64,000 bases of DNA, from positions 4,293-68,292 of the forward strand of contig MU119433.1 of the NCBI GenBank assembly GCA_014904845.1. The letters run 5' to 3'. The stretch comes from Acephala macrosclerotiorum. Its lineage: Eukaryota > Ascomycota > Leotiomycetes > Helotiales > Mollisiaceae. A model generated the notes under the pieces. The model worked only from the letters and a program-made list of their open reading frames with translations, was not told the origin of the DNA and ran no database searches. Position numbers and translations under genes: made by a program. Each line of letters begins with the position of its first letter. Within the stretch, counting starts at the first letter, position 1. This document shows, in pieces, positions 28,282 through 52,412 of this stretch.

Positions 28282-29728
28282 ATGGCGGCGACTCCGTCGC
28301 CCTTCACGCCCAAGCAGGCGTACCCCAAAACCGCCGCCCTCTTCGAAGAGATCATCGGCAACTCCTCCGAACAGATCTGCCGGCACATCTTCACCCTCCT
28401 CCCTCCCTTCACCCCTCATTCTCTCATCCACGACAACGGCTCAGGAACTGGTCAAGTGACCGCTGAAGTCATGGACACGAACCCTCCTCTCCCAATCAAG
28501 ATCATCGCCACAGATGCAAATGAATATCAAGTGTTAGCCTGTCGAGCAAAAGTAGAGGAAAACGGATGGCCAGTTGAGACGGAAGTTATGAGAGCGCAGG
28601 AGCTGACGTTTCCTGACGAGTATTTTACGCACAGTTTTACGAATTTTGTGGTGTCAAATTTGGACGAGCCGGAGGTTGCTGCCGGGCATATTTGGAGGAC
28701 GTTGAAGAAGGGAGGGGTGGCTGTTGTTTCTACGTGGGCTTTCATGCCGTAAGTGATGGATTCCATGGGGAACTGAATAAAGGCAACATGGCTTAACTTT
28801 GCATGTATTCGAACATCTTGGCCAAGCTTTGTTTGGCTATTTTGTTACAGAACCCGCAGAAGACCATAGCGGCTGGTTTTTTTGGTCATTCTAGCCACGA
28901 CTTTCCCATGAAGAAGGCGTCAGAAGTCACTCGAGGTTCAGAGGCAAAGTTTGCCTTGCATTGGGGAGGAGATTGGTAAGAGCTGGGGGCCACCAAACAC
29001 GGCCCACCCCACCATTTTACACCAAAACACTCCTTTTGCGTTTATTTATATCTCTACAACGCGTTAATTTAAGTTAATAAGAACTTCTTATATTCTTAAT
29101 CTTTACTAAATACATCTTTTGTACTATTCAGAAATTAAATTAAATGTAAAATGCAAAAGTTGTATGTAGTTAATTATGAAAGAGGAGTAAAATCGCTTAA
29201 TTTACATATAAATTTATGAAAATTTTAATATTTCTCACTTTACTTATATATAAAACTTGCAATTTAAAATATTAATTTTAGAATTTTTAATATAATTAAA
29301 TTTAAATAAATCTTAATCCAATTCTTCAATTTTATAAAATTTTATTAAGAATATGGCGAGTTATTAAGTTATAAAAAGTGTAACTTTCGGTGTAAAATGG
29401 GGGGTGGGCCGTGTTTGGTGGCCCCAGCTCTTACCTGCAATCTAAGCTAAAAGACTTTATGCTATCAGGAGGTTTCGAAGAGCGGAATATCAAAATCAGC
29501 ACATCTGATGTTTTCCTCGAGATCAAGGACTCGAAGCGTTGGGCAACCATCTTATGGAGCTACCTGGGAGCGAGGGATGGTGGCTGGTATCAAGAGGACG
29601 AGGACAAGTGGGATGAGGCAATTGAGATCACGGTCCAGGAGATCGAGAAGTCGCCTGCGTATCAGAAGAACAGTGATGGGACAGTGAGGGTGAGATTTAT
29701 AGCAAACGTATCTATCTCCACGAAATAG
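28282..29728 (+). CDS. Class I SAM-dependent methyltransferase with a TIR element in its second coding exon
   Basis: The first exon (28282-28748) encodes the Rossmann-fold half with motif I DNGSGTGQVT, then IIATDANEYQVLACR, NFVVSNLDEPEVAA and WRTLKKGGVAVVSTWAFMP. An intron (28749-28894, GTAAGT..CTAG) leads to an exon beginning HDFPMKKASEVTRG. That exon is split by the 453-bp TIR element. The C-terminal half resumes with YLQSKLKDFMLSGGFEERN and KRWATILWSYLGARDGGWY and ends RVRFIANVSISTK. If the element is removed as a 452-nt intron (28976-29427), the coding sequence is open: exons 28282-28748, 28895-28975 and 29428-29728, 849 nt, 282 residues. Unspliced, it stops at TAA 28977-28979. The substrate is unknown; relatives are often secondary-metabolism or general UbiE/COQ5-like enzymes. 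Confidence 0.78.
28979..29431. mobile_element. 453-bp TIR element (MITE, TA target duplication), possible introner
   Basis: The ends are near-perfect inverted repeats of about 44 bp (28979-29023 and 29389-29431), each starting AGAGCTGGGG then CCACCAAACACGGCCCACC. TA dinucleotides flank both ends (28977-28978 and 29432-29433), and deleting the element plus one TA restores a conserved methyltransferase frame, so the boundaries are firm. The interior is AT-rich, non-coding and RIP-like. TA duplication with short TIRs is the hallmark of Tc1/mariner-type MITEs. The junction makes GTAAGA and the right TIR offers CCCCAG, so it could be spliced out. Confidence 0.93.
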
Positions 29729-39304: not shown

Positions 39305-40530
39305 ATGCAATCAGTAATGAAAGATACTGTCCAAAAGGTGGGAAACGCTATCAACACAGCTATGTCTCCCAATCAGAAGATGGCAGATATGAAACGCGAT
39401 GTGATCGAACCAAACTCTAAGGATGTCTTGGCGAGTGATTTTGGTAAGAGCTGGGACCACTACACATGGCCCACTTAACCGAGAATTATAAAATCAACCC
39501 TTTTAATTTTAAATTTTATAATTAATTCATTACTCAGTCTTTTGCTTTGAAATTAAAATTATATATTAATAAATAGTAATTAAATCTCGTATTATAATAA
39601 TATTTTTAATTTTATAAATTAATTATTTTATATAATATTTAAATTTACGTAAATTTATTCGATTTTATAATTTTTATAATTTTTTATATAAATTTTTTCT
39701 ATTTTTCGATATATAAAATTTTTTTTTTAATTTTTTATTTATTTATCGTTAAATTTTTTTAATTAAATTTAAATTAAACGAATAAAAAAATTAATTAAAT
39801 TCGTGAATTTTATATTATAATTTAAAAAATTAAATTTTTTTTTTATATATTTTTATTTCGTTTTCTATAAAAATATATTTCGAATTTATATTATCGAATA
39901 AAAAAAAAATTACAAATTAAAAAATTTATTAAAAATATATTTAAAAATAAATATTTTTATAATTTAAATTTTTTTTATAAATATTAATTTTAATTTATAA
40001 TTTTAATTAATAAATAAATCGTATATAATTTAAAAAATTTTTTATTTATTTTTCGTATTATTTAAATTTTTTAATTTTTTTTAAATTTTTAAATATAATT
40101 TTATTTAATTATATAATTGTTTATTAATTTTTTTATTATTTATTATTATTTTTATAAATAATATAATTTAATATTTTTTATTATTTATATTTTTTAATAA
40201 ATATTAATTTTTTTTTAAATTTATTATCGTAATATATAAAATCGAAAATATATAATATAATAATAATAATTTATATAATATAATTCGAATAAAAATTGAA
40301 AATTGTAATAAAATTTTAAAATTAATAAAAATTATTTTACGAGAAAATTAATTTTTTACGATTATACAAATATATTAATAAATGTTTTTTATAAATATAA
40401 TATATAATTTCGAGCGTTTTTTTTTTTAGTATTTAACGATTATATTTTTATTTAAAAATGTGTTTTATTATTTTTTTAAATATAAAAGTCTTTTTTTTTG
40501 AATTTTTATAAATTGTAAATAATTATACAA

Positions 40531-40660
40531 TATTATATAAAAAAACTCGAGATCAAATAATACAATTTAATTTAATATAATATAATTTATCGAGTTTAAT
40601 TTTTATATTGTAATTTTATAAAATAAATTATTTTTTACTATATATATTACTTTTTTAACA
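40531..40660. repeat. Left LTR core (heavily RIP-mutated)
   Basis: It aligns base for base with 49541-49670. Nearly all differences are T here for C there, or A here for G there. I counted one transversion in 130 positions. Confidence 0.8.
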
Positions 40661-41448
40661 AATAATAATAATAATAATTTATTCGTTTTAAGATTTTATA
40701 TTTGTTTTAAAACGCGATTTCAACGATTTCTATTTATTATTTTATTTTTTAATAATTAATATATTGATCGCACAAAATATCGTTCAAATCGTATATAATT
40801 TTCAAGAGTTTCAACGAATCAAATACAAATATACTAACGATTTCGAATTTTAAACTATTAAAATTATTTAATTTATTATTTAATATTTTTCGAATTCTCG
40901 TTTATTTTATTTTATTTTTATTTTTAAAATTGTTTCGATTTTACGAAATATAAAAACTTTAATAAAATTAAAAAATATTTTTATTTTGAACGTATAAATT
41001 TAAAGTAAAATTAATTTTAATACAATTCTCAAAAAATTTATTATAATTACTAAAATTATTATATGAAATCGAAAATTGAAATATATATTTAAAAATAAAA
41101 ATAAAAATTTAATTTTAAAAATTTTAAAAATTTTAATATTACGAAAAAAAAATATTTAATTTTTTTAAAATTTAAAACAAAATATTAATTTCGTACGATT
41201 TTTTCAAACGATATTACAAAAAAAATATACAATTTTAATTTTATATATCGAAAAAAAAATATTTAAAAAAATAATTAATTTATTACTCGAAATACTCGAA
41301 ATTAAAAATAATAATCAATGTAATAATCAATAAAATAATTTTATACTCGAAATATTAATATCAATACAAAATATTATTTTTATTATTTTTCAAATTTAAA
41401 TTCAAAATATAACGAATAATAATAAATATTATATTTTCAATTGTAATC

Positions 41449-41489
<41 letters not shown>
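41449..41489. repeat. AAT trinucleotide run in AT-rich block
   Basis: About thirteen AAT units inside the mutated retrotransposon interior. Confidence 0.85.
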
Positions 41490-44400
41490 CGAAATCTTAT
41501 TAATAAAAATTTTATTAATATAAAATAAAAATCAAAAAATATAAATTATTTTAATTTAAATTTAAAATTTTTTTATAATAAAAATAATTATATTATAATC
41601 GAACAAAATATTTATTAACGCGATATTTATTTCTTTATAAATTAAATTAAAAATAATATTATTAAATTACGCGTTTTAATCGTTAAATAAAATTTTTATA
41701 TTTATTTTCGTAATATAATTTTAATATAATACTTTAATAAATTATTTAAACTCGAAAAAAAAAAAATTTAAATTCGATTAAAATAACGTTTTTATATAAA
41801 TCGATATATTTATTTACAAATTTAAAATAATTCTAATTATAATTTTATACAAATTTTTAATAATATAAATTTAAAATTTTATATATTTTTTTCAATATTA
41901 ATTAAAATAATTTTAATTAAAAATTTTATAAAATAAAGAATAATAAAAATACAAATTTAAAAAAATAATTTAAAAAATTTTTTTTTTTTATTAAATTTAA
42001 TAATAATAATAATAAACGCGATTTCAAATTTAAAAAATTAAATAATTTCAATTTAATTTTTTATTAAAATTTAAAATAATTTAAATTACAATTTAAATTT
42101 TTTATATTTTATATAAATTTTTATTAGTTTTTTTTTTAATTAAATTTTTCAATAAAACAAATTAATTAATAATAAGAAATTACTATAAAAATTTATTTTA
42201 TTATTATTAAAATTTAAACTCGTATTATTAATATTAATAATAAAATTCGAAAAAATCGAAAATAATAAATTTGTTTACAAATTAAATTTTTATAAAAATC
42301 AATAAAAATTTAATAATAATAATTATAAATTCAAATAATATTATTAATATAATAACGTATATTAAATTAATAACAATTTTTACGATATTTTTATAGCAAT
42401 TAAAATTAATTATAATAAAAAACTAAAAAAATAAAAATAAAAAATTATTAAAAAATTAAATTTTAATTCAATATAATTTAAAATTTTAATCGAAAAAAAA
42501 ATTATTATTAATATAATTTATTTTATTAATATTATTAAAAAGATTTTTAATTATAAATACGAAAAAAAAAATTTATTGAAAATTTAATTATTTAAATATA
42601 TTTATAAAAACTTTTACAATATCAATTAATTTTATTAAAATTTTTTATTGAAAATCGAAAAATATTATTAAATTTCTTTATTAAAAATTGAAAAAATCGA
42701 TAAATATAATACTAATAATATACGAGAAATTAATAAATATAATAAACAAAAAATAATTTTTTCAATTTAATTATTTATAATAAACAATTTTTCGTTTTAA
42801 TAATTTATTAAAATAATTTTTACGAAAATTTCAAATAATTTTATAATAAAATATATATATGTAATAATAAAAATCAAATTAAAAATAAATAGTAAATTAT
42901 ATAAAATATATATTAATTTTAATTATTTTCGTTTTTTAATCGATAAAAAATAAATATAATTCGTATTGAATTTATTTATTAATAAATTCGAATTAATTAT
43001 AATTTCAAAAATCAATAAATTAATAAAATTCAATAAACGAATTATTTTTATAATATATATATTCAAAGTAATTAAAAAATAAAATATATTTAATAAAATT
43101 AAAATTCGTATATAAATAATTAAAAATTTCGATTTTAAATTTTTTTTAAATAACGAATTTTTATATTTATATCAAAAAAAATTAAATTATAAAAACTATA
43201 TATTTATTATTGATTTATATAAAAATTTGATTATATTGATTCGAATTTTTATAAAAAGTTTTTATATTAAAAAAAAAATTTTATACGTAAAAAATATTGT
43301 AATTTTATTTCAAAAAATCGTTATAATATTAATTATATATTTTTTATTATTTAAAAATTATTAATTTATATTTAATATTTAATATATACGTATTTACAAT
43401 ATTATTATAAATAAAATAAATTTTATTATTATTACAAATTCAAATTTTATTAATTTATTAATCAAATAAAAAATTAAATTAAAAATATATTAAAAATACG
43501 AAAAAAACAATTATTATATAATCGAATTAATTTCGAATAAAAACGAATAAAACTCGAATAAAATTATTAAATAATAATATTTATATATATATCGTAAATT
43601 TAAAATTCGTAATTTAATTCGAAATTTTAATCGACGAATTTACGATTTATTAAATTAATAAAAATTTTATCGATTTTTTATTTGAATTATATATATTTAT
43701 TTTATTAATCGAAAATTAATAAAAAATAAAAATCGTTAATAATAAATATTTTATTAATATAAAAAATTAAAAAATTATTAATAAAAGATTTAATATTATA
43801 TATAATAAAAATAAATTCAAATAAATAATTTAATTAATATTTTTTAATTATTTCGTATTTATAATTTAAAAAAATAATTAAAAAAAAATTTATTTTATTA
43901 TTAATATAAAATCTATTAATAAAATGATAATTTTCAATGTATATTTAATATTATATTAAAAAAAAATTATAAAAACTTTTAAAAATATAATTTATATTAC
44001 GATTATTAATAAATTAAAATTTTTTTATTAATTTTTAATTCGAGAAAATTATTAAAACAAATTTATTATTATTAATTATTGTAATTTAAAACGTTTTAAA
44101 GTAATTTTTTAAAATTTTAAAATTTTATTTATTTATATTCAATAAATTATAAATTTAAAACTTTAATTATATCATTATTTTATTAGAGTTTTTATTAATA
44201 ATATAATCGTTTTTTTAAAAACGCTAAAAATTTTTTTTTAATATTTATACGAAATATTTGTTTTATTTACAAAAATATATTTATATTTATTTTTATTAAA
44301 ATTTTTTTTAAAATATTCGTCGATTTACTTTTTTAATTATTATATAAACGAATTTAAAATATTTACAATCGAAAAACGAATAATAATAATTAAAAATTTT

Positions 44401-47400
44401 ATATTTTTCGAGATTTTAAAATCTTTAAAAATATATTTAAAAATAATAAATTAATTTCGATTTTATATATCGTTTTACGCGTAAATATCGAAATTATTAT
44501 AATAATATAAAATACAAATATTTATATAAAAAATAAAATTTTACAAAAAAAATAAAAAATAAAATTTTTTATGTATATATTATATAAAAATCTACGAATT
44601 AAAAAAAAAATATTATAAAAAAATTTTCAAATTTATAATTATTAAATAAACGTATATTAATTTATTAAAATTTAAATAAATCGTTTTTTTTTTAAAATCG
44701 ATATTTTTAAAAACGATTTTAAAATTATAATTTTTTATTTTAAAAAAAAATTATATTTTAATTTTAAATTTTTTTAATTTATTAATTTTTACGATTTAAT
44801 TTATATTATTTTTAAATAAATTAATTTTTTTCGTCGAAAAATATTATTATTTTATCAAATTCGAAATAATATATTTAATATATATTTATAAAAAATTTCG
44901 AATTATAATTTAAAATAATAAACGTTTTATTCAAATTTTAATAAATTATTTAATAATAAAAAATATTTATAATCAAATTTTTTTATTTATTTTCAATATT
45001 ATTAAAATTAATATAAAACTTATTACGATTTTTGAATATTTTTTTCAATTCAATTTCAAAATATAATACATTTTTAGAAAATCAAATATTATATTTAATA
45101 TTTTAAACAAATTTAAAATTATTTTTTCGAAAAATATTTTTAAAAACAATATTTTAAATAATTTTTACTCATTCTCAAAAATTATTATTAATTTAAAATA
45201 CAAATTATAATTTACAAAAAATTATATTAAAAATCGTTATTTTTATAAGATTTTAAAGTTTTTCAATTAAAAAAAACAAATTAATTTTTTAGAAAATTTA
45301 AATTAATAATATTTTTTTTTTTTTATAAAATAATTTATTATTTTATATTTTTTATAAAAATTTCAATCGTTTTTATATTTCGAAAATTATATTTTACGAT
45401 ATTCTTTTGAAAATTTATAATAAATATTATTTCGATCTCAAAAAAATAAAATAAAAATTATCGAATTTTACAATTCGTAAATTAATAAAAAAATTAATTA
45501 AATATTTAATCTATTATTCAAATTGTTTTTATAATAAAATTTTACGATTTTCAATATACGATTTTTTACAATTAATTCGTATTAAATTAAAATTTTTTAT
45601 AATAATTATAATTAATTTTATTTTTTATTTTTTAATTATAAAAATAATCGTTTTATAAAAAATTAAAAATTTCGATTTTTTCGATTATTTAATACTAATA
45701 TTTTATAAATTCTTTAAAAAAAAATATTTATTTTAAAATATATTATATATACAATTAAAAATTAAATTAAAATTTTAATTACAATATTTGTATTTTATAA
45801 TTAAAAAATATCGAATAATATTATTTTCAATCGAAATAAAAAATTCGATTTCGAATTTTAATAAATTATTTTTAAATCTATAAATACAAAACTACGAATA
45901 TTTATCGTTTAATATTTATAAACAAATAAATTATTAAAACAAATTATATAAAAAATCGAAATCGATTTTTATTATTTTATTATATTTTATTTCGATTAAT
46001 TATAAACGAATTATATTATTTTATATTAAACTTCTATTAATAATATATTTATAACAATTATTAACACTAATTCAAACGAAATTATTACCGATTATAAAAC
46101 GAATACAATTTTATTATTTTTATACAAATTAAATTCTTTTGATATTTTTAAAATTATTTGAAAATTTTATTAATAAAACATATAATTAATTATTGATTTT
46201 ATTATTATATTTATTAAAAAAACGATATAATTTTAAATATAAATCGTTTACAATAAATATCGATAATTTAATATATATTAAATTTTATAAAAATTACAAT
46301 TTTTTAAATTATTCAAATTTAAAATCAATAAAATAATAAATCGATTTTTTTTTATTAAAAAACGTATTAATCGTTTTATATATAAATTGTAATTATTTTT
46401 TTATTAAAAAATTTATTCAATTATTTTTATTATTTATTTATATTTTATATTAAAAAATAAAAATTCGTATAATAAATTAAAATTAAATATCGTAAAATTA
46501 ATCGATATTAATTCAAACGATAAATATAATAATAATTAAAAAATTTAAAAAATTTAAAAAAATTATTAATAAAAAATATATTTAATATAATAATAAAAAC
46601 AATTTCAAGTATTTAATCAAATGAAAAAATTATAATATATAAAATCAATAATATAAAATCGAATTACTTAAAAACGTAATTAAATTTATTTAAAAATATA
46701 AAACTCGTATATTAAAATTTTTAATTCGAATTCGTATACGTATTTATTTAAAAAATTAATTTCGAATTCAATAATAAAAAATTCAATAATTATATAAATC
46801 TTGAAATCGTTTTAAAAAAACAATCGATTTAAAAAAAATTTATATAATTTTAATCGATTAAAAAATTTTACTTTTAAATTTATTAAATTTTTTTTATTTA
46901 TTAATATAATTTTATTTGTTTATAATTTATTTATTTTAAATTTTTTTTATATAATTTTTTTTATTTTATTATTAATAATAATAATTTTTAAAATCGAAAT
47001 TATTTAATTTTATTATATATTTTATTTTTATAAAATAACGTATAACGTTTAATAATAACAATTTTAATATTTATAAATTTTTAATTTTTAATATAAATTT
47101 TATCGAATTTGAAATTTTTTTATTTATTTTCGATATATAAAAACGATATATTTTATTATTTTTATTAAATAACGAATTAAATAATATTATTTATTATTTA
47201 ATTTTTTTTTAATTCAATTTTAAATAAAAATAATAAATTCGTTTTCAATTATAAAATATTTTACGAATTTTATTACAAATACAAAATAAATTTTTTAAAA
47301 ATTTTATTATTATTTGTATTTAATTTTTCAATTTTTTTATTAAATTTCAAAAATATTTTATTAATTTCTCTAGTAATTTTATTAATTTTTTTATTCAAAT

Positions 47401-49540
47401 TTAATAATATTTTATTAAATTTTTTTACGATATATTAATTTTTTTAAATATATATAAAAATTTTTTTTTAAATTTTTTTAATAAAAAAATACAAATTTAA
47501 TATTTCAATTTTTCAAATTTTATAATTAAAAAACAATAAAAATTTTTAAAAAATTAATAAAACGAATTTTTTTTATATAAAAAAATATCAAATTATTTAT
47601 TGAAAGATTTTTAATAATAAATTATTTATTTAATTTCAAATCAATAAATTTTATATTAAATATAGTAATTTTTTTAATAATTTAAAACTTTTTATTAAAT
47701 AATTATTTATTGAATTAAATAAAAATAAATTTAAAAACGTTAAATTTATTTTGAATTTAAATAATTTTTATATTTATTTATTTGTTTAATAAATTAAAAA
47801 CGAATTCGAGTATTTAATTTTAATTTTATAATTATCGATATAAAATTTTATTTCAATTAAATTATAAAATATATTTAATAATAATTTAATTAATTAAAAT
47901 TAATAAACGCTTTAATAATAAAATTTTTAATATTTAAAAATACAAAATTAATTATTCAAATTAATATTAAAAATTATAATTTTTTATTGTAATTCGCGAA
48001 AAAATTATTTCATTTTATAAAACAATTTAAAATCGAATAATATTTATTGTTTAAAAACTCGATAAAATTAATTTTTTATTATTAATTTAATTATTTTCAA
48101 AAATTAAACGTTATAATAATTAATAATAATAAATTCGATATTTTAAAAAAAATTCAAAATTTTTTTAAAATTTATATACAAATTATATTAATTATTACAA
48201 TAAATTACACGATAATTAATTTGAATATTTTACGATTTTTATTAGTTTTTAATATTTTTATTAAAATAAAATAAAATTCATTAAAAATATTTAAAATAAA
48301 CGCAATAAATATCGATAAAAAAATCGAAAATAAAAATACAAAAATTGATAAAATTATTGTTTTTAAAAAATATAATTTATTTTTTAATATAAATATTATA
48401 AAAACTAATAATATAAATTAATTATATAAATATTATAAAATATTATAAAATTTATTAACGAATATTTTTAATATTAAAATTTAAAAAAAATAAAAATCGA
48501 TTATTAAATATATTAAAAAATTTATTTTAAAAATTTTAAAAAAATTTATTCGATTTTATTTCGAATAAAATACTAATTAAAATAAAAAATTTAATCGAAA
48601 TAATTAATAAAATTTTAAAAATATAATTTTATTATTTTTGAAATATAAAAAATTAATAAAAATCGTAATATAAAAAATATTTCAATTTTAAAATTTTAAA
48701 ATACGTCGAAAAAATTGTAAATATATTTGTATAAAATATTTTATTATTGAATTTATAAACGAATTACATTTTGTAAATATTTATTTTAAAATACAATAAA
48801 ATAAAAAATTTAATAATAAATAAAATTTTTTTTTATAAAACGATTATAATATCGTAAAATAATTTTTATTATTTATTTTAATATATAATAATATTATTTA
48901 TTATTAATATTACAATTATTTTAATTTTATTAATAATATATTTTTCGCGATTTTATATTTTATTAAAAATTTTTTAATTATTATTTAAATAATTTTTTAT
49001 AAAAATAATATTAATAAAATCGAAATTATAAATAATTTATTTAATTAATATTTATTTTCGTAAATTAATATAAAATTTTATTAAAATATTATATTAATTT
49101 ATAAAATTAATATTTTTATTTTTTAAATATATTAAATTTAATTATATTATATAAATATTAAATATATTTAACGTTAATACATTTTATAAATTTTATTATT
49201 ATATTAATATTAAAATTTATTAATAAATTAATATAAAAAAAATACGAAAATTATTAATAAAACGATAAAAAATCAATTAAAAAATAAAAATTTTACAATT
49301 ACGAAAATAAAAAACTAATATTAAAATTATTAAAAAATAAAAATTAAAATAGTATTTTTTAAATTTTTTTTTACGATATAAATTATATACGCGAAATATT
49401 TTTGATTTTTACAAAAAAATAAAAAATATAATTACAAATTTACAATTGTTTTAAATTTCAAATAAAGTAAAAAAAAAAAAAGTCTTGTAAAATCTTCTTA
49501 GTCTTACGAGAGCGTAAAAAATCTTCAAAGAGCGGCACTT

Positions 49541-49670
49541 TGTTACGTGAAGAGACTCGAGGTCAAGTGATACAGTCTAGTCTAGTTTAGCGTAGTCTAC
49601 CGAGCCTAACTCTCATGTCGTAGCCTTACAGAATAGATCATCCTTCATTACACACACTACTTTCCCAACA
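49541..49670. repeat. Right LTR core (little mutated)
   Basis: This copy keeps a mixed base composition, for example ACTCGAGGTCAAGTGATACA, and gives the best view of the original LTR. It ends in TTTCCCAACA. Confidence 0.8.
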
Positions 49671-52412
49671 CGCGAGTAAAAATAGACTATTTTTTTTTGT
49701 TTTTCTAAAGAAAAAACCAAGTATTATAAGTATTTCCATTTTAAATTACAGAGAAAAAGAGCTATTAATTAATAAATTATTAAAATTTAAAAAAAGAAAA
49801 CTGGAAATAAGAACACGTCGACGCGTTCGTTTAAATAGGCCATGTCTAGTGGCCCCAGCTCTTACCAAGCAGCCTGTCGGTAGTCACGACGTCTGGCTTC
49901 ATGCCTCGACAGGTGATCGCTAAGGTCCTGCTCTTCTAGAGGATAACTTTGGACGTGAGAAGGTATTGAAATTAAGCACTGGATGTTTAGAGAATAAGCT
50001 AATTTTCTCCTTCAGATTATGAAGTTTGACCACGAACGTATTCCCGAGCGAGTCGTTCACGCCAGAGGAGCTGGCGCCTTCGGAAACTTCAAGCTTTACG
50101 AGAATGCTGAAGATGTCACCAGCGCTAGTGTTCTCACCGATATCTCTCGCAACACGCCTGTCTTCCTTCGATTCTCAACAGTGTTAGGCTCTCGTGGAAG
50201 TGCAGATACCGTGAGAGATGTTCGAGGTTTTGCTGTCAAGTTCTATAGGAGGAAGGGAATTGGGGTATAGTTGGAAATGACATCCCAGTGTTCTTCATTC
50301 AGAATGCTGTCAAGTTTCCAGATGTTATCCATGCTGGGAGTAAGTCTAGGGACACATTCTTCTGTACCTCCTTGCTAACAAGGTACAGAGCCCGAACCCG
50401 CAAGCTCAATCTGCCCATAACAACTTCTGGGACTTCCAGTACTTGCACTCTGAAGCTACCCACATGTTCATGTGGGCGATGAGTGACAGAGGTATCCCTC
50501 GTTCGTACAGGATGATGCAAGGCTTTGGCGTCAATACTTATACCTTGACAAATTCCCAAGGCGTTCGTTCCTTTGTCAAGTTCCATTTTACTCCAGCCCT
50601 CGGGGTTCATTCACTCGTGTGGGACGAAGCATTGAAGATCTGTGGTCAAGACCCCGACTTCCACCGCAAGGATCTCAACTCCGCCATCGAGAATGGAGCC
50701 TACCCAGTCTGGAAATTTGGTATCCAGGTCGCCCGGAGAGCAAACAAGACGATTTCGACTTCGACATTCTCGATGCCACAAAACTCTGGCCGGGAGAGTT
50801 GCTCCCTATCAGATACATTGGAGAGCTGGAACTCAACAAGAATCCTGACGAATACTTCACCCAGGTTGAGCAAGCCGCTTTCTGCACAGCTCACGTCGTT
50901 CCCGGCATCGGATTTTCTGATGACCCTCTCCTTCAAGGCCGCAATTTCTCCTACTTCGATACACAACTCTCACGCCTGGGCGGTTAACAGGAAGGCACAC
51001 CATCAAGAAGGGCAAGATCAACTACTACCCTAACCGCTACGACCTGGTCCCCGCCGCCAAGTACTCCGAAGGAGCATACTACGAGTACCCTGAGAAAGTC
51101 GTAGCCATGAAGCAAAGACTTCACTCTGTGAAGTTCTCCGAACATTTTTCCCAAGCCCAAACATTCTGGAACTCTATGTCCCCACACGAGCAAGCACACA
51201 TCATTAACGCACTCGGCTTCGAACTCGATCACTGCGATGACCCGACCGTCTATGAAAGAATGATCGAGCGACTAACAGATATATCACTCGAGCTCGCCCA
51301 AACCGTTGCCGAAAAAGCAGGCGCACCTACACTAACCAAAGCAGGACGTCCCAACCACGGGAAGAAAATGAAGGGCCTCTCACAGACCGAATTCACTCCT
51401 GAAGCTCTTGGACTCCCCCTCACAATCGCCACAAGGATGATTGCTATCATCATCGCTGAGGGGTTTAACTTAGCTGAATACGAAGCTGTGAAGGGGGCTT
51501 TGAGCGCAGCTGGAGCTTTGGTGTTTACTATTGGACCGAAGAGACAGCCTGTTAAAAGCTCCGGTGGAAAATCGGTGTCTCCAGTTCATCATTTTGAGGG
51601 GATGAGAAGCACAATGTTTGATTCTCTTATATTCCCGGCGGAGAACATGTGTCTTCGCTCATGAAGCAAGGACGAGTTATTCATTGGGTACGAGAAGCAT
51701 TGGGACACTGCAAAGCTATCGGTGCTACCGGAGAGGCTGTCAAGCTTGTGAAGATGGCTTGTGAGGTGGAGGGAATGGTGTTTGGTGGGACGGATGTGGT
51801 GGATTCCTACGGAGTCGTTACGGCGAGTAGGGTGGGAGGGCCGGAAAGTGTTGTTGAGGGTGTTAAGATGGTTAAGGGGGCGAAGAAGTTCTTGGATGCT
51901 TATGCATGGAACATTTCGCAGCATAGAAACTTCCAGCGTGAGGTTGATGGGTTGACGAGTATGGTTGCTTTCTAAATGGTTCACTTAAACTTTACAGTTA
52001 CCAATTTATTCGAGGCAGTAGGCACAGGCGAACGGCAATTGGTTTTTTTGGTGCTCAACAGTCTTGATATTTTCTCTATATCCACACGATCATGAGACTT
52101 CCCCGTCTCCCTCCAAATATACCCCAGACCTCTTAAGCACATAGATATGTGTGCTGAGAATAAGATAACGCCAGCCTGAGGTCAATGTTTGTCCTCCACC
52201 TGCTTTTAGTGTTTTGCAATTGCTCTCGTACTCCGTGCAGAAGCGCCTTATTAGTAGTGCCTGCTCTGCTTAACTCAACGCAGTATGGTATTCGCAAACG
52301 CCTTGAAAATCCATGCAAGGAAGATCGACAAGTCTTCCCAAACGCTCGCTCGCTAAAAATCATCGCTTCATAATCAAAACACATGTGATCCAACACTGAA
52401 GTTATCCTTCAC

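Follow-up and report, generated by a model that had tools for sequence, protein, structure and literature searches.

We found that a family of short transposable elements in the ascomycete Acephala macrosclerotiorum targets the motif WNGTACNW and duplicates its TA, and that insertion at GTAC produces the frame-neutral geometry of an intron, GTAAGAG...CCCCAG, in either orientation. This geometry is real and systematic, and it is built by target choice. One copy of the family lies in a methyltransferase gene of the window, that is, the whole stretch of 64,000 nucleotides analysed (contig MU119433.1, positions 4,293 to 68,292; features of the window are given below in its own numbering and lie on the forward strand). 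The explanation we favour, with moderate confidence, is that a non-autonomous Tc1/mariner MITE recently entered an exon of this gene, that its intron geometry is a by-product and that the element is spliced inefficiently or not at all.

The element spans 453 bp (28979..29431) and has an AT-rich core (18% GC). It is bounded by terminal inverted repeats (TIRs) of 47-49 bp, the left one at 28979..29027 and the right one at 29385..29431, which were recovered as the inverted-repeat pairs I1 (91%), I2 (90%) and I4 (100%, its 14 complementary nt taking in the flanking GGTA). TA stands on both sides of the element. On the left, the would-be donor GTAAGAG begins with the target G and the TA duplication (28976..28978), and the right TA duplication, identified from the sequence and the paralogues, occupies 29432..29433. 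The right TIR contains CCCCAG with its AG at 29426-29427; the would-be intron thus extends from 28976 to 29427. In each frame that was followed through the MITE, stops occur.

The product of the interrupted gene is methyltransferase-like, as determined with the joined empty-site protein (Methyltransf_11, E 6.2e-13). Following the frame, we reconstructed exon 1 (28282..28748), a putative intron 1 (GTAAGT...TCTAG, 28749..28894), exon 2 (28895..28975), which ends at the insertion, and exon 3 (29428..29728), whose first 4 bases would, in the case of splicing, be the final ones of the element and which closes with the stop TAG at 29726-29728. In the spliced form these exons add up to 849 nt and 282 amino acids without internal stops, compared with 281 amino acids for the empty-site version, and the Trp at the junction is replaced by Cys-Ser. 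With the element retained, translation meets a TAA directly after the Trp. The initial annotation had described a 453-bp TIR element in a coding exon, with a donor composed of the target G, the TA duplication and the TIR start, an acceptor in the right TIR and these same two outcomes for the frame, and our analysis bore out each of these points, coordinates included.

Two paralogues from the same genome (C26:230088 and C254:75248; a third one on C26 was left out) are continuous through the insertion site and have no intron there. Both carry the junction Trp, and the spacing from this Trp to the GGF/AGF motif is 16 residues in all three genes by hand count. Farther downstream, stops interrupt the frame of the C26 paralogue, perhaps reflecting introns or decay. 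Furthermore, the alignment with the solved relative 5jgj runs on across the site, with Ser where the Trp stands. Since the paralogues are uninterrupted, the empty site must have contained a single TA, as ...GGTACC..., and the element joined a previously unbroken exon there only recently. Intron 1 is missing from both paralogues, but the notion that it is a second mobile intron was rejected, as its sequence used as a genome query gave one match only.

A DNA search of the 69.7-Mb genome yielded 98 matches to the element on 40 contigs (contigs counted by hand), corresponding to about 40 places, and a TIR-end pattern identified 66 ends as opposed to 0 for the reversed-pattern controls, both more than chance would give. 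A version of the TIR pattern with five Gs matched the window copy only, most copies having four. For 35 copies the best match was 92-99% identical (100% for the window copy), and five others were diverged (C264, C160, C30, C747 and C539). Flanks were read for the 35 copies, 19 of them two-sided; a contig end interrupts the other 16, leaving the left flank in 9 and the right flank in 7, and separate insertions among the 35 may number as few as 33. The assembly breaks inside the MITE at many contig ends (16/35 copies), which makes copy and gene counts uncertain. When one copy was compared with another, 265 of 299 substitutions were C>T or G>A, as expected of repeat-induced point mutation; together with the presence of an NLR-type gene, this suggests a filamentous ascomycete.

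The tip of the TIR (26-29 nt, 86-96%) is common to the MITE and to elements on C271, C4, C5, C161 and C74, each about 1347 bp long; a more diverged element of this type is present on C151. Pieces of protein encoded by the 1347-bp elements matched HTH_Tnp_Tc3_2 (E 1e-10) and DDE_3 (E 5.8e-9 and 1.1e-13), which assigns the family to Tc1/mariner. The 453-bp element is thus a non-autonomous, multicopy Tc1/mariner MITE, for which the 1347-bp relatives are the candidate source of a mobilising transposase; no partner bearing the complete MITE TIR turned up in the genome, only the 26-29-nt tip being common. As in fungal MITEs of the IS630-Tc1-mariner group, there are TIRs, a TA duplication, a short AT-rich core and related DDE_3 elements in the genome, whereas the extended target WNGTACNW and a TIR tip that by coincidence provides bases of both donor and acceptor set the present family apart.

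GTA precedes the element at 50 of the 53 ends counted (the degenerate left end of C60 was dropped and the five diverged copies were not included), and position -5 is A or T at 51 of them. Among the two-sided copies, 16 of 19 have GTA and TAC on both sides, the exceptions being C36, C417 and C60. Considering that GTA accounts for 21.8% and GTAC for 4.6% of 4132 TA sites in the flanks, the donor G at the methyltransferase is not a matter of luck: the family seeks WNGTACNW. Two of the diverged copies are flanked by GTA/TAC (C160) and ATA/TAT (C264). Because the TIR starts with AGAGCTGGGG, every insertion at GTAC reads GTAAGAG...CCCCAG|CTCTTAC, and does so both ways, as the initial annotation had deduced for the splice-site ends. 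Splicing would turn GTAC into CTCTTAC and so add one codon independently of element length, and in none of the 12,288 enumerated combinations of phase and neighbouring bases did the spliced product gain a stop. Without splicing, stops are encountered in C232, C446 and C103, the three copies checked. The literature matches listed include no mention of a GTAC target rule, which is not proof of its being unpublished, and no described case recognisable as this element; nor does the rule appear in the available portions of PMC4188875 (Sclerotinia) and PMC2836289 (Paracoccidioides).

In addition, we identified a second MITE subfamily on C193, C1, C90 and C290 (L073-L077), with the TIR AGAGTTGGGG (also given as TAAGAGTTGGGGCCAC), a length of 325-502 bp in three copies and the same target preference. 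The GTA donor base is present at 7 of its 8 ends read, but a CAG acceptor is absent from all four right ends that were read, two being CCCCAACTCT and the others CCCCAATTCT and CCCTAACTCT. Several copies of this subfamily exist despite the missing acceptor.

To score copies in genes, we applied a codon model built from 43 ORFs (50 kb) with thresholds of codon log-odds of at least 5 and an open frame of at least 60 aa (at least 45 aa for one-sided copies); a hexamer model from 29 kb looked overfitted and was dropped. A coding-like frame reaches the site in 9 of the 35 copies, in sense orientation in seven (C232, C446, C193, C15, C208, C166 and C691) and antisense in two (C69 and C153), a bias that is not significant (one-sided binomial p 0.09, by hand). 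Five of the 35 were judged coding by eye (C232, C446, C103, C123 and C691), all of them sense, although C103 and C123 remain below the threshold. Copies that look gene-internal, of the kind that the initial annotation proposed to search for, are present in the genome. For the NLR-type protein at C446, a weak match to DUF7069 (E 0.0072) spans the insertion site. Coding-like sites were not enriched, with 6/19 for the element and 31/77 for WNGTACNW control sites (Fisher p 0.60), a small sample with a local control drawn from limited DNA (123 kb). A long-ORF control with 125 GTAC sites of the window (68% with at least 100 aa) was discarded as biased to gene-rich DNA. Moreover, none of the five diverged copies reached the coding threshold (best 2.7), so that the older copies offered no example of an intron in an intact gene.

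The MITE inserted at GTAC in the formerly continuous methyltransferase exon, duplicating TA; according to our favoured explanation, the intron geometry would follow from target choice and TIR sequence, and the element would most likely inactivate the gene through the immediate TAA or else be spliced only partly. The TIR/TA anatomy, the DDE_3 relatives, the target rule and the uninterrupted paralogues agree with this, as do the unenriched coding-like sites, the acceptor-less sister subfamily and the diverged copies. Furthermore, the element is predicted to fold far more stably as RNA than 100 shuffled sequences (-156.6 versus -86.6 kcal/mol, z -12.2), with both splice sites inside the TIR stem, and contains no CTRAY branch motif on either strand. 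Pulling the other way are the donor GTAAGA, which we take to be strong by consensus, the sense orientation of all five copies judged coding by eye, and the lack of a clear shortage of coding-like copies, such as one might expect if insertions simply disrupted genes. A TAAC is also found 43 nt upstream of the AG in the sense orientation with no AG between, and intron 1 of the same gene likewise lacks CTRAY. Among 32 intron candidates chosen without regard to the branch motif, CTRAY occurred in 11 (shuffled rate 0.17); as this set is noisy and intron 1 itself has no CTRAY, we gave the branch-site argument little weight.

Precise splicing of the element is possible, but that the GTAC rule and the TIR together give a working intron, precisely removed from any transcribed exon at the cost of one codon, seems doubtful to us. 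Such an introner is what one would expect from a geometry that is neutral in all phases, from the GTA at nearly all ends, from copies inside genes such as the methyltransferase and the NLR-type protein with its weak DUF7069 match, and from the seven sense copies among nine; the indirect signs, however, lean against an efficient introner, namely coding-like sites without enrichment, the absent CTRAY, a hairpin over both splice sites, a sister subfamily without acceptor, and the loss upon splicing of a Trp kept in both paralogues read, even if 5jgj has Ser there. Slightly more doubtful still is the broader proposition that this Tc1/mariner family acts in a filamentous fungus as an orientation-independent, frame-neutral generator of introns, an introner with TIRs, target-site duplications (TSDs) and transposase relatives. 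Imprecise partial splicing with cryptic acceptors has been reported for C. elegans Tc1 and maize Ds, and an analogous partial removal here, from the strong donor to cryptic acceptors located either in the AT-rich core or in the exon downstream, would fit the widespread GTA donor base and the weak context of the 3' site; it is unlikely, as the element yielded no 3' site combining CTRAY with an AG. We consider it very improbable that the gene was a pseudogene before the insertion and that the frame agreement around the element is meaningless. The nearer intron-1 acceptor TTACAG (28850) does lead to stops, but the acceptor needed for an open frame, at 28893-28894, carries the frame through to 29726-29728 and is backed by equal spacing in the two paralogues, as judged by eye.

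Introners with TIRs and TSDs have been reported from algae and other protists (Gozashti 2022, PMC9860276). According to the available part of that source, in some of them the donor derives partly from the target or TSD and the acceptor is element-borne, some add codons, and median family lengths of 30-654 nt encompass our 453 bp. In contrast, the introns considered here are predicted from sequence alone and were not found through annotated introns, coding copies are few and coding-like sites are not enriched. The same text asks of introners that four or more similar introns occur across unrelated genes and gives enrichment in genes for 161 of 175 genomes, a typical but not obligatory feature that our family does not display among the coding-like sites scored. 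As far as the accessible text goes, ascomycete introners in this 2022 survey are without TIRs or TSDs (PMC9860276), although inverted repeats or stable structure had, according to PMC8469720 (in part), been noted before in introner-like elements of fungi. The elements of Capnodiales and other fungi thus resemble the present family as repeated elements in exons with such structures, but ours is clearly derived from a DNA transposon, with TIRs and a TA duplication. Similarly, the symmetrical sister (stw)introns of Hypoxylaceae have terminal inverted repeats of 45-55 nt, but in the portion of PMC8469720 at hand they show no target duplication, are nested, function on the coding strand only and had splicing confirmed in 31/36. 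Of the transposon-derived intron suggested by the initial annotation, the MITE and the intron geometry therefore hold, whereas the likeness to known fungal introners is not supported as proposed, given the missing enrichment, the non-significant orientation bias, the acceptor-less subfamily and the ascomycete introners described in PMC9860276.

The ascomycete introners surveyed in PMC9860276 bear, in the text available, no transposon marks. Target specificity alone would make nearly every exonic insertion of the present family a candidate intron with one added codon; RNA-seq over the copies is therefore a direct test of transposon-driven intron gain. If splicing proved true, this would be a TIR/TSD introner in an ascomycete, where the large survey, as far as its text is available, found none (PMC9860276), and if RNA were negative, an ordinary exonic MITE. 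Even unspliced, the family shows intron-like geometry arising from target choice without selection for splicing, which calls for caution in introner surveys resting on annotation.

Some further copies deserve mention. The contig ends of C123 (L028) and C20 (L060) appear to belong to two related genes with the common motif RGCSCHKVGDEY, by eye with the MITE in the N-terminal coding part of one and about 140 nt upstream of the motif in the other; a single insertion was ruled out by eye, as they look like two related genes. The copy on C29 (L002) probably lies in an intron, antisense to a gene with a stretch that we presume to be BNR/GH74-like; the 50-aa piece gave no Pfam match. The window also contains a second family member, a decayed 1347-type element with an AT-rich insert of about 9 kb (9% GC overall), at GTA...TAC in a catalase gene (39447..49862). 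Its ends are 72-78% identical to the C271 copy, an in-frame stop follows shortly after it, and the catalase match (PF00199, E 3.9e-37) lies just downstream.
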